54,842 nt of DNA from Propioniciclava flava (GTDB lineage Bacteria > Actinomycetota > Actinomycetes > Propionibacteriales > Propionibacteriaceae): positions 1 through 54,842 of the forward strand of contig NZ_PPCV01000013.1 of the NCBI RefSeq assembly GCF_004126535.1, written 5' to 3'. Within the stretch, counting starts at the first letter, position 1. Each line of letters opens with the position of its first letter. Made by a program: the position numbers and the translations under genes. The notes under the pieces were generated by a model. The model did no database searches. It saw only the letters and a list, made by a program, of their open reading frames with translations, and was not told where the DNA came from. This document shows positions 16,776 through 20,433 of the stretch, one piece after another.

Positions 16776-17591
16776 GTGCCCATCCGCCTGATCGCCACCG
16801 ACATGGACGGGACCCTCCTGCGCAGCGACCACCGCACCATCAGCCCCCGGACGCGGGAGGCGTTCGCCGGCGCCCGCGAGGCCGGCATCGACGTGCTCGC
16901 CATCTCCGGACGCCAGCCCTACTCGATCGGCGCGATCGTCGCCGACTCGCCCCTGGACGGCGCCGTGGTCGGCAGCAACGGCTCCGTCGCCATGGATCTG
17001 CTCACCCGCGAGGTGCTGTTCGAGGAGACGCTGACGGTCGAGGCGCAGCGCGCGATCGTCGAGGGGATCCTCGCCGAGTTCCCGCACGCCAAGGTGTCGT
17101 CGTCGCGGGAGGCGGGCAACACCTACGTCACCCAGCACGGCTACGCGGGGCTGGAGGATCCGGGCGCCGAGATCGCCCGCTGGGAGGTTTCGCACCGCCG
17201 GGCCGATCTGGACGAGGTGCTCGCGGAGCCGTCGGTGAAGCTGGCCATCCTCGACCCGGGCGTGCCCGCGGAGTCCCTGCTGGCGCTGGCGCGCAGCCTC
17301 GACGTGCCGGGCGCCTTCCCGACGACGTCGGGCGCGCCGTTCCTGGAGATCGGCAAGGCGGGGGTCTCGAAGGCGACGGCGCTGGCGCGGTTCGCCGAGG
17401 CGCGCGGTTACGCCCCGGAGGAGGTCGTCGCGTTCGGCGACAACAACAACGACGTCGAGATGCTGCGCTGGGCCGGGCTGGGCGTGGCGATGGGCAACGC
17501 CGTCCCGGCGGCGCTCGCGGCCGCCGACCAGGTGACGTCCCACCACGACGAGGACGGCGTCGCGAAGGTCATCGAGCGCCTGCTCGCCTGA
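16776..17591 (+). CDS. HAD-superfamily hydrolase, Cof type
   Basis: A 271-residue Cof/YbiV-type phosphatase. The nucleophile motif ATDMDGTLL is at the N-terminus. AISGRQPYS, a Lys in GKAGVSKATAL and VVAFGDNNNDVEML complete the HAD motifs, with a C2-type cap between. Such enzymes dephosphorylate sugar phosphates or cofactors; specificity cannot be read. GTG start at 16776 with AAGGAG nine bases upstream. A 22-bp repeat array begins two bases after its stop codon. Confidence 0.92.
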   Translation: MPIRLIATDMDGTLLRSDHRTISPRTREAFAGAREAGIDVLAISGRQPYSIGAIVADSPLDGAVVGSNGSVAMDLLTREVLFEETLTVEAQRAIVEGILAEFPHAKVSSSREAGNTYVTQHGYAGLEDPGAEIARWEVSHRRADLDEVLAEPSVKLAILDPGVPAESLLALARSLDVPGAFPTTSGAPFLEIGKAGVSKATALARFAEARGYAPEEVVAFGDNNNDVEMLRWAGLGVAMGNAVPAALAAADQVTSHHDEDGVAKVIERLLA

Positions 17592-17592
17592 C

Positions 17593-17880
17593 CCGCCGGC
17601 GACTTCGACTCCCGCCGCCGACCACTTCGGGTTAGCCCGTCGAGGACTTCCCGTTACCCCGTCGAGGACTTCGGCTCCCCCCGTCGAGGACTTCGCGTTA
17701 CCGCGCCCATGACTTCGAGTAAACGCGCCGAGGACTTCGGCTGAGCGCGCCGAGGACTTCGGCACAGCGCGGCGAGGACTTCGGCCCAACCCGCCCAGGA
17801 CTTCGGCCCAACCCGCCGAGGACTTCTGGTTTCGCTGTCGAGGACCTTCGCCCACCCGTCGAAGGCCTTCCGTTGGTTCG
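17593..17880 (+). repeat. Tandem 22-bp repeat array, 13 units
   Basis: The core GACTTC or a one- or two-base variant recurs at 17601, 17623, 17645, 17667, 17689, 17711, 17733, 17755, 17777, 17799, 17821, 17843 and 17865: 13 units at exactly 22 bp. Each unit reads CCGYCGAG + GACTTCGGC + about five variable bases. Core bases are strongly kept while the spacer drifts. The array starts two bases after the HAD stop codon, and 22 is not a multiple of three, so a translated protein repeat is unlikely. Reverse-oriented units recur at 19080-19190. Confidence 0.93.
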
Positions 17881-18048
17881 CCGCGAGCTGTCCGGTGAAG
17901 CGGTCGGCTCTCCCCGACTCCGCACCCGGGCAGACGCCCGAGCACCCGGCGAGCGCGCGGACGGCGTCCGAACGGCAGATCCTGCGACGGACCGCACGAA
18001 CGGCCACCCCGGCGGGCGCGCGCGGTCGCGGAGTCCTAGGCTGGGACC

Positions 18049-19014
18049 ATGCATGCCGTTTACGTCGAGCAAGCCGACCCCACCGACCCCCTCGCCGCCC
18101 TGCGGATCGGCGAGCGCCCCGACCCCACCGTCCCCGAGGGCTGGGCGAGGGTGAAGGTCGAGGCCGCCGCGATCAACCACCACGACGTCTGGTCGCTGCG
18201 CGGCGTCGGGCTGCCCGCCGACCGGATGCCGATGATCCTCGGCACGGACGCGTCGGGGCTCGCGGAGGACGGCCGTCCCGTGATCGTTCACTCCGTCATC
18301 TCGACGCCCGGCTGGATCGGGGACGAGACCTACGACCCCAAGCGCAGCCTGCTCTCGGAGCTGCACCAGGGCACCCAGGCCGAGTACGTCACCGTCCCGG
18401 CGTCCAACCTGGTGGCCCGGCCGGCGTTCCTCAGCCCCGAGGAGGCGGCCTGCCTGCCCACCGCATGGCTGACCGCGTACCGCATGCTGACCCACGACTC
18501 GGGCCTTTCGGGCCCCGGCACCGTGCTGGTGCAGGGGGCGTCCGGCGGCGTCGCGTCGGCCGCGATCGCGCTGGGCAAGGCGCTCGGCCACCGCGTCTGG
18601 GCGACGGCCCGCACCGAGGCCAAGCGTGAGTTCGCCCTGGAGCAGGGCGCGGACGCCGCCTACGAGACGGGCTCGCGCCTGCCCGAGCGCGTGGACGCCG
18701 TCATCGAGACGGTCGGCGAGGCGACGTGGTCGCACTCGCTGAAGTCGCTGCGTCCGGGCGGAACCGTGGTGGTGTGCGGGGCGACGTCCGGCCCCAACCC
18801 GTCCGCCGATCTCAACCGCGTCTTCTTCCTGCAGTTGCGTGTCATCGGCTCGACCATGGGCACCCGTCAGGAGCTCGGCGAGCTGATCGAGCTGCTGGGC
18901 CGCACTGGGCTGCGTCCGCGCGTCGATCGGGTCCTCCCCCTGGACGCCGCCCGCGACGGTTACGCCGCGGTGCTGGAGGGCGAGATGCTCGGCAAGGTCG
19001 TCCTGCGTCCCTGA
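18049..19014 (+). CDS. MDR-superfamily NAD(P)H quinone/zinc-type oxidoreductase
   Basis: A 321-residue medium-chain dehydrogenase/reductase. The N-terminal GroES-like fold (VEAAAINHHDVWSLRGVGLP, then LGTDASGLAED) is followed by the Rossmann motif VQGASGGVASAAIALGKAL. EQGADAAYET and VVVCGATSG follow. The structural-zinc cysteine cluster of alcohol dehydrogenases is absent, which favours the quinone oxidoreductase-like branch. Substrate unknown. It is bracketed by two oppositely oriented 22-bp repeat arrays, one starting 456 bases before it and one about 65 bases after it. Confidence 0.85.
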   Translation: MHAVYVEQADPTDPLAALRIGERPDPTVPEGWARVKVEAAAINHHDVWSLRGVGLPADRMPMILGTDASGLAEDGRPVIVHSVISTPGWIGDETYDPKRSLLSELHQGTQAEYVTVPASNLVARPAFLSPEEAACLPTAWLTAYRMLTHDSGLSGPGTVLVQGASGGVASAAIALGKALGHRVWATARTEAKREFALEQGADAAYETGSRLPERVDAVIETVGEATWSHSLKSLRPGGTVVVCGATSGPNPSADLNRVFFLQLRVIGSTMGTRQELGELIELLGRTGLRPRVDRVLPLDAARDGYAAVLEGEMLGKVVLRP

Positions 19015-19079
19015 ACGTGCCCGATGCCGACCGGTGTGCCCGGACGCCGACGAGTGCGGCCCGGGCCGGATCAGTCGGT

Positions 19080-19190
19080 CCCGGCGCAAGTCCTCGACGG
19101 GCAGAGCCGAAGTCCTCGGCGCGGTAACTCGAAGTCCTCGGCGGGGTAAGCCGAAGTCCTCGGCGGGGTAAGCCGAAGTCATCGGCGGGG
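19080..19190 (-). repeat. Tandem 22-bp repeat array, 5 units, reverse orientation
   Basis: The complement of the same core (GAAGTC and variants) recurs at 19087, 19109, 19131, 19153 and 19175, again exactly 22 bp apart. On the minus strand each unit reads CCGCCGAGGACTTCGGC plus spacer. The first unit contains the TGA stop of the lycopene cyclase gene (CCCGCCGATGACTTC), so the array begins at that stop and reads in the same direction as the gene. It lies between two convergent genes. Confidence 0.92.
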
Positions 19191-20384
19191 GTGGCCCCGG
19201 AGCGTGGCGCGGGCCAGGGCCCACTGGGCGCGCGGGGGCATGCGGGCGAACATGCCCCACATCGCGGCCAGCACCGGGGCGAGCGCCGAGTCCCTCGACA
19301 GGTAGGCCGCCTGGCTGCGCGGCGGCAGCCCTCCGAACGCCTCGAACAGCGCCCCGGTCCCCGTGACGTCGAGGCCGAGCAGCGCCCGCAGCCCGGCCGC
19401 GCGCGCCACGTCGGCCGGACGCCGCGGGTCGACCTCGTCGGGCGTCTCCCCGCGCGCCAGCGCACGCGACAGCCGGTCGGCCACCGCGAACGAGTGCGCC
19501 ACCGAGTAGCCCGTCACCACGTGGCCGCCGCGCCCGGCGACCCCGGCCGCCAGCGTGCCCGGCAGGGGCGCCCGGTCGCGCCCCAGCATCGGGATCGAGA
19601 CGATCTCGCGCTCCAGCGGCGCGGCGATCGCCCGCTCCGGGACGCCCCGCCGGGTCAGCCGCGTCCGGAGCCGGGCCTTCAGCTCCGCGATCGGCAGGCC
19701 CGGTGCCGCGGCCAGGCAGGTCTCCTCCAGCAGCACGCGGTCCTCGCCGAGGGCGATGGCGTACAGGAACGTCGGCACGCGGTCGAACGCGGTGCCTCCA
19801 TTCTCGACGGTGTCGGGCGACACGACGGCCACGCCCCGAGTGGTGCCGGCCTCGGCGTCCGATCCCCGGCCCGGCGGGCGGTGCCAGTCGGTGCGCCAGT
19901 CCATCAGGAGGCCGGGGGCGCCGTCGAGCGCCGGGGCGGCGTCCTCGGCCCGCACGACGATCCCGAACGCCGTCTGGTGCGGTGACGGGTCGCCGGGCAG
20001 GACGCCGGACGGCCGGGCACCGCGGGCGTCCACCACCACGCGCGCCTGGGCGCGCAGCGCGAGCACGCCGCCGTCGTCGAGGCGTTCGCGCCGCACGGTC
20101 GCCGCGGAGAGGTCGTAGTGGTCGTGGACCGCCTTGTTGTCCAGCACCACGTAGCTCCGCTCCAGCGGGTGGGCGTCCTGCGCCACGATCCACGGGGACG
20201 CGGTGGCGTGCCGCACCACCGAGGGCGGCAGGGAGCCGAGCTCGTCGGCCCACAGGCCGTAGGTCGGCGTCCAGATCGCCGCGGGGCGCGGGTCGAACGC
20301 CACCACGTCCAGGCCGGCGGCGGCGCAGCGGCTCGCGAGGGAGCGGCCCGCCGGGCCCAGGCCCACCACGGCGACGTCGAACAT
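19179..20384 (-). CDS. crtY: Lycopene cyclase (FAD-dependent, CrtY/CrtL type)
   Basis: A 401-residue flavin-dependent lycopene beta-cyclase, making beta-carotene from lycopene. The FAD-binding motif VVGLGPAGRSLASRCAAAG is at the N-terminus. WTPTYGLWADEL corresponds to the plant/cyanobacterial CrtL motif, and LLMDWRTDW and LYAIALGEDRVLLEETCLA are further cyclase signatures. The chosen ATG at 20384 starts directly at MFDVAVVGLG and has GAGGAGGGG upstream; an earlier in-frame start would run toward crtB. It is divergent from phytoene synthase with 61 bases between. The stop codon is embedded in a 22-bp repeat. Confidence 0.88.
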   Translation of the reverse strand: MFDVAVVGLGPAGRSLASRCAAAGLDVVAFDPRPAAIWTPTYGLWADELGSLPPSVVRHATASPWIVAQDAHPLERSYVVLDNKAVHDHYDLSAATVRRERLDDGGVLALRAQARVVVDARGARPSGVLPGDPSPHQTAFGIVVRAEDAAPALDGAPGLLMDWRTDWHRPPGRGSDAEAGTTRGVAVVSPDTVENGGTAFDRVPTFLYAIALGEDRVLLEETCLAAAPGLPIAELKARLRTRLTRRGVPERAIAAPLEREIVSIPMLGRDRAPLPGTLAAGVAGRGGHVVTGYSVAHSFAVADRLSRALARGETPDEVDPRRPADVARAAGLRALLGLDVTGTGALFEAFGGLPPRSQAAYLSRDSALAPVLAAMWGMFARMPPRAQWALARATLRGHPRR

Positions 20385-20433
20385 GGCGCCCCTCCTCGTA
20401 GCCGGTCCTCGCCATCGTGCCATGGCCAGGCAG

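Follow-up and report, generated by a model that had tools for sequence, protein, structure and literature searches.

Why would a single gene be enclosed by two arrays of evenly spaced direct repeats that point towards each other, and what could such arrays do at the ends of genes? The question arises from a stretch of 54,842 bases (the window), which is contig C4 of a Propioniciclava genome of 3,007,896 bases in 26 contigs (G000). A preliminary description of this DNA had reported two arrays of 22-bp units, each starting at the end of a gene and reading in its direction, and could name no described family with these features, which agrees with searches of the open-access literature (PubMed Central, preprints excluded), in which none of the titles listed concerned such repeats. 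The arrays look like an undescribed, Propioniciclava-specific family of gene-end elements.

The two arrays of the window

Both arrays are present where they had been reported, with 13 units on the + strand, 5 on the - strand and a period of 22, far above chance (Table 1). Tandem Repeats Finder returned a period of 22 for 17592-17826 and 19088-19190, and the best 66-bp stretch of the window matched itself at lag 22 in 59 of 66 positions, as compared to at most 36 in 20 Markov-1 simulations. Furthermore, 10 of the 11 copies of GAGGACTTC in the window lie inside the arrays, while 0.29 copies are expected.

Some finer points of the description stood only in part. The core is indeed conserved, but it is wider than the proposed GAGGACTTCGGC, approximately CGCCGAGGACTTCGG, with linkers of about 7 bp instead of about five. 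Similarly, the claimed absence of slippage holds for the first 11 units of the left array but not for unit 12 (17833), which has an extra core base, and unit 13 (17855), which is one base off. The left array does start at a stop codon, that of the HAD gene (17589-17591), whereas the stop codon of the lycopene cyclase gene (TGA, 19181-19179) is itself supplied by the first unit of the right array, with an overlap of about 11 bases between open reading frame and array. In addition, a + strand gene follows downstream of the left array and the right array is located between convergent genes, therefore neither adjoins one gene only.

Table 1. Repeat arrays of the window and the genes around them
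Feature	Position	Strand	Description
HAD-type hydrolase gene	16776..17591	+	Pfam PF08282; stop codon abuts outer end of left array
Left array	17591..17876	+	13 units of 22 bp, A type (CGCCGAGGACTTCGG and linker), last two decayed
Zinc-type oxidoreductase gene	18049..19014	+	Pfam PF00107; lies between left and right array; found at the same place in the relative G093, where arrays are missing
Right array	19081..19190	-	5 units of 22 bp; faces left array
Lycopene cyclase gene	19179..20423	-	Pfam PF05834; start uncertain (20423 or 20384 by two gene calls); stop codon 19179-19181 inside first unit of right array

Within the oxidoreductase gene, 82 bases (18680-18761) match a plasmid record of Streptomyces sp. 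NBC_01483 at 90% identity, and the five other records found match at 64-70%. The matches of the plasmid search span this gene or parts of it, and none is to the arrays alone.

Unit structure and distribution

A two-unit pattern (at most 3 mismatches) has 48 matches in G000, and its reversed control has none. Although positions within the search core are conserved by construction, matches with 0, 1, 2 and 3 mismatches number 17, 15, 10 and 6, and this lack of a pile-up at the cut-off indicates that the conservation of the motif is real and not merely ascertained. The genome holds 11 arrays, on C1 (+, -), C2 (-), C4 (+, -), C5 (+, -, +), C21 (+, -) and C26 (+). On each of C1, C4 and C21 a single gene is enclosed by a + array and a - array in facing order, namely a DUF6582 gene, the oxidoreductase gene and an MBL-fold hydrolase gene, respectively; adjacent pairs do not occur in this genome, and its pairs enclose genes. 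One of the C5 arrays is in frame inside a ROK gene (L024 2090-3268, - strand), which stays open across the array and a second short repeat, with about 60 extra residues. The best ROK match in this gene sets residue 133 against profile position 55, which suggests an insertion of about 60 residues that includes the array.

The unit consists of a conserved 13-15-bp motif and a linker of about 7 bp, which varies between loci while the spacing stays at 22. Several motif types share this 22-bp frame in G082, probably Propioniciclava sinopodophylli KCTC 33808, namely A (CGCCGAGGACTTCG), B (CGCCGAGGGCTTGGG or ..TTGCC), C (CGCCGAGAGCCCCGG), D (CGCCGAGGGCTCC) and E (CGCCGAGGACTC). By eye the A unit is an imperfect palindrome (GCCGA-GGACT-TCGGC), and the B to E units are less palindromic. 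Linkers are often similar inside one array and different between arrays, with 17 kinds in 30 units in G000, 71 in 144 in G082, 12 in 12 in G068, 12 in 19 in the MAG loci and 4 in 8 in G133. Most loci were located via 22-spaced matches, which biases the spacing counts, but the list of 48 exact single cores in G068 is unbiased, and there same-strand neighbours within 60 bp are spaced 22 in 14 of 15 cases and 44 in the other; cores with one mismatch include one neighbour at a spacing of 20. The period variation of neutral minisatellites is thus not what the unbiased list displays.

Other members of the genus carry related 22-bp arrays with diverged cores, most of them in P. sinopodophylli. Dimers of the A type (at most 1 mismatch) occur in 2 of 197 genomes of the family, G000 and G082, and dimers of the B type (2 mismatches) in 5 of 197, all of them Propioniciclava, with none in the control. 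With a looser pattern, 8 of 13 genus genomes yield 22-spaced dimers, as compared to one control match in total (G082 191, G068 56, G000 35, G133 18, G117 8, G110 5, G123 2 and G103 2, where the smallest counts may be chance); runs of N that one scan had returned as arrays in G117 were left out before counting. Neither of the two scanned dimer patterns has a match in the genomes sampled from 28 further genera of this family. At a strict threshold, no 22-bp array was found in 200 kb of G068, in 200 kb of G093, in two 20-kb stretches each of G011, G034, G052 and G103, or in nine readable stretches from other genera (a tenth was all N). A search of the genome collection gave 55 stretches, 40 from P. 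sinopodophylli, nine from one Propioniciclava MAG, one from a Propionibacteriaceae MAG and five strays (Bacillota MAG, Treponema MAG, Bacteroides MAG, Gordonia and Burkholderiales MAG), which were not counted as members; when the linker letters of the A dimer were fixed, this collection gave no match. A phage origin was rejected, as both scanned patterns lack matches in viral contigs.

Repeats of similar length were also seen elsewhere. An uncultured Bacteroides MAG has three 22-spaced units like CGCCGAGGACTTG (L172 1794-1860), which may be chance or contamination, a Treponema MAG has a 22-spaced dimer that continues into a 21-bp array (L170 3301-3474), and a Burkholderiales MAG has a 22-bp tandem repeat of four units (L200 about 319-436). 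Ten 20-kb samples of G093 contain no 22-bp array and, at the strict threshold, seven segments of period 20, located in three samples; its arrays at L242 69-1150, L245 10367-10874 and L247 17230-17562 have a period of exactly 20 and a recurring tail with CAACTGACG. Arrays with a period of 20 or 40, among them a short one of period 20, are also found in G034 (L290 10666-10729 and L291 2678-2865). The period-20 arrays of G093 and G034 are unrelated in sequence to the 22-bp arrays.

Facing order and position at gene ends

Order and position were analysed with our own gene caller and array finder, and arrays within 2 kb of each other were taken as neighbours. A + array followed by a - array is the order in 26 of 28 neighbouring arrays (3/4 in G000, 20/21 in G082 and 3/3 in G068), a count that includes one '--' neighbour of G000 which we read as a single C21 array split by the detector. 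Against an expectation of one quarter this gives P 5e-14, which serves as a guide only, since related arrays are non-independent. Single cores in G068 give the facing order in 5 of 7 cases, and the reverse order does occur; at L255 about 1490-1523 of this genome a - core and a + array stand back to back in reversed order, with their outer ends touching. The two arrays of a facing pair either adjoin back-to-back, which gives a long hairpin, or lie on the two sides of a gene. The 13 pairs of G082 that lie within 120 bp fold better than their shuffles (z -3.5 to -15.7), and this strong folding arises because the two arrays are inverted.

The 56 arrays of G082 are distributed over convergent (18), codirectional (28) and divergent (7) regions, genes (2) and a contig edge (1). 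When arrays are counted against the 19 convergent, 72 codirectional and 40 divergent intergenic regions of at least 60 bp, they are over-represented in the convergent and under-represented in the divergent ones. Moreover, 22 of the 33 arrays with a same-strand upstream gene begin within 12 bp of its stop codon, as compared to 10.2 expected, and none of 20,000 simulations reached as high. The same tendency is not significant in G068 (5/8, P 0.09) or G000 (2/6, P 0.29). Random placement relative to genes is therefore contradicted by the abutment, the convergent excess and the divergent deficit in G082.

The expected bias to 3' ends read in sense thus held for proximity to stop codons in G082 but not for orientation, and the claim that arrays follow the direction of the preceding gene is not supported. 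In codirectional regions sense and antisense arrays number 15 and 13 in G082, 2 and 1 in G000 and 4 and 2 in G068, 21 and 16 in total, and some - arrays come after + genes. The left array on C21 runs antisense to the MBL-fold hydrolase gene, the right one lies in a divergent region, and the pair is at no gene's sense 3' end; one C5 array is inside the ROK gene. Pairing, + then -, is a stronger rule than sense reading at 3' ends. Because a facing pair is symmetric, a gene that abuts its outer end is always read in sense, which explains what had been observed in the window.

Array sites in related genomes

Among the other 12 genus genomes, G093 is the closest at three compared loci, with about 80-90% identity over most aligned pieces. 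The genes enclosed by arrays on C1, C4 and C21 have the same left neighbours in G093, where the arrays are absent.

After the stop codon of a conserved gene ending in ..LLKPQG, G068 has two B units, G082 five B units and G133 three C units. A hairpin stands at the same gene end in G093 (-51.6 kcal/mol), in G000 (-45.6 kcal/mol) and in G011, where it comes with a T run, while G034, G128, G123, G052, G103, G117 and G110 have neither an array nor an outstanding hairpin. The best 50-base windows range from -19.1 to -30.7 in these seven genomes and from -24.8 to -32.3 in the three that bear arrays. After a gene ending in ..FLGSL, G068 has a facing pair of 3 and 2 units, and G082 has two + units and, after the next gene, two - units. 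Together, these comparisons suggest that an array site can be retained even as its number of units, its motif and the location of its partner array change. The picture is mixed for the end of the HAD gene, where the G082 window reaches -31.5 and those of G068, G011 and G123 are weak (the G093 value is unusable, as its alignment stopped 40 residues early); at the GNAT gene end no strong hairpin was found in relatives.

Possible explanations: protein-read elements or selfish repeats

A protein that reads the arrays on DNA would best account for the recurrence of the motif with linker drift, the two-turn phase, the placement at gene ends and the facing order. Tentatively, and with less than even confidence, we take the arrays to be a Propioniciclava family of helically phased, protein-bound gene-end elements, a reading drawn from sequence comparison. 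A putative protein would bind the motif on one DNA face along the array, 22 bp being about two helical turns, and the bound block would stop or insulate transcription arriving from the outer end. A facing pair could then shield the enclosed segment from both sides, and where arrays abut, the transcript might also fold into a long hairpin. In the window, transcripts of the HAD gene would end at the left array and those of the lycopene cyclase gene at the right array, which would leave the oxidoreductase gene isolated. The hairpin of an adjacent pair may add to termination, but it can play no part where arrays are lone or separated by a gene, as they are in the window. Hairpins at gene ends that bear a lone array are weaker than those at array-free ends in G082 (33 vs 57, P 0.009) and G000 (11 vs 46, P 0.015) but not significantly in G068 (n 5, P 0.52), in a comparison where the array DNA itself occupies part of the tested stretch. 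The weaker hairpins in G082 and G000 are expected if arrays replace hairpins. On the other hand, the exactness of the 22-bp spacing could also reflect a lower frequency of indels than of substitutions.

An origin as selfish, REPIN-like repeats that lack a RAYT comes close in likelihood to protein-read arrays, possible rather than probable, and it is compatible with later function. Inverted doublets of the REPIN/BIME kind would have been spread by a putative enzyme, would have survived mainly after stop codons and grown by tandem duplication, which would leave similar linkers within an array, and no cell function would be needed. The back-to-back pairs of G082, which form long hairpins, agree with such an origin, as do the intergenic bias with one in-frame copy in the ROK gene, the presence of many copies in few species and the lack of arrays at the same places in G093, and tandem REP arrays are known elsewhere according to the available text of PMC3116915. 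However, mobilisation by a RAYT was rejected, since Y1_Tnp/RAYT (PF01797) is absent from 13 of 13 genus genomes while controls were positive in 5 of 14. Furthermore, linkers differ between loci, which argues that the arrays are not recent copies of one array, and two array sites are common to G068 and G082.

A wider version of the protein-read model is more speculative, and we regard it as doubtful. The genus would possess a boundary system in which a fast-evolving DNA-binding protein and phased arrays, with facing pairs marking gene ends, do the work of the hairpin terminators of relatives, and species would swap the motif type (A, B or C), perhaps even the period (20 in G093), while keeping the layout.

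Less likely explanations: RNA hairpins, slippage and mobile cassettes

It is distinctly unlikely that the arrays act as RNA-hairpin terminators, in which a facing pair would be a bidirectional hairpin terminator in RNA and the tandem units would provide spare stem halves. Such a role would suit the folding of adjacent pairs far above shuffles, the placement at gene ends, the ordinary hairpins of relatives at the ..LLKPQG site and the one terminator-like match with a T-rich tail in the left array (17801-17821). However, terminator-like matches are close to the shuffled level (2 vs 0.6 and 1 vs 0.6), single arrays are unstructured, with a median z of -0.9 for 11 in G000 and +0.3 for 56 in G082, and G000 has no adjacent pairs. 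Rfam returned no match at gathering score in five array loci, and just two matches, both sub-threshold, in 17400-19400 of the window.

Still less probable are neutral minisatellites, which would have originated by slippage and persisted by chance in intergenic space. Substitutions generally outnumber indels, linkers are often similar within arrays, and unit number differs at the shared ..LLKPQG site (2, 5 and 3), all of which would fit slippage. A period of 22 that is constant over many loci and several species, a related motif at unrelated loci, the facing order and the stop-codon abutment in G082 argue against it. Highly improbable, finally, and largely refuted for C1, C4 and C21, is a mobile gene cassette or transposon with the arrays as its ends, since the facing pairs of G000 do surround one gene at these three places, but the enclosed genes stand beside the same left neighbours in G093, where these arrays are missing.

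Relation to known systems

The usual explanations for families of short intergenic repeats in bacteria are RAYT-driven REPs or neutral slippage. If a protein reads the Propioniciclava arrays, they would represent a gene-end mechanism that works through phased sites in DNA rather than through RNA hairpins, and if none does, they would be a family of repeats able to spread in the absence of the usual enzyme.

Intrinsic terminators of convergent genes are located at gene ends. The arrays resemble them in this position, in the hairpin of abutting pairs and in the hairpins that relatives have at one array site; however, lone arrays are unfolded and appear to lack a regular T tract. In multi-site transposon ends such as those of Tn7 or Mu, sites of about 22 bp are repeated in inverted ends, but the genes enclosed by the Propioniciclava arrays stay in place in G093, where these arrays are missing.

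The arrays can also be compared with REP, BIME and REPIN elements. The available text of two papers on REPs and REPINs describes inverted doublets, tandem REPINs, REP arrays at 72 and 112 bp and an association with RAYT (PMC3116915, PMC3733652). As described there, these elements share with the arrays short intergenic motifs in many copies, hairpin-forming inverted doublets, occasional tandem clusters and several motif groups per genome, while the 22-bp direct arrays flanking the inversion point, the gene-split pairs and the absence of RAYT from the 13 genus genomes set the Propioniciclava arrays apart.

The TAACTGA repeats, intergenic direct repeats of Beggiatoaceae, Cyanobacteria and Bacteroidetes, are the closest parallel described for a family made up of many small sets of direct repeats, and they have been proposed as regulator binding sites (PMC4679880). 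Both families form many small intergenic direct-repeat sets with a patchy distribution, but the TAACTGA repeats are, in the same text, heptamers located mostly right before start codons, with a single indirect repeat, whereas the Propioniciclava arrays have 22-bp units, gene-end positions and facing pairs. The arrays are classed with the short intergenic repeat families, and not as REPs.
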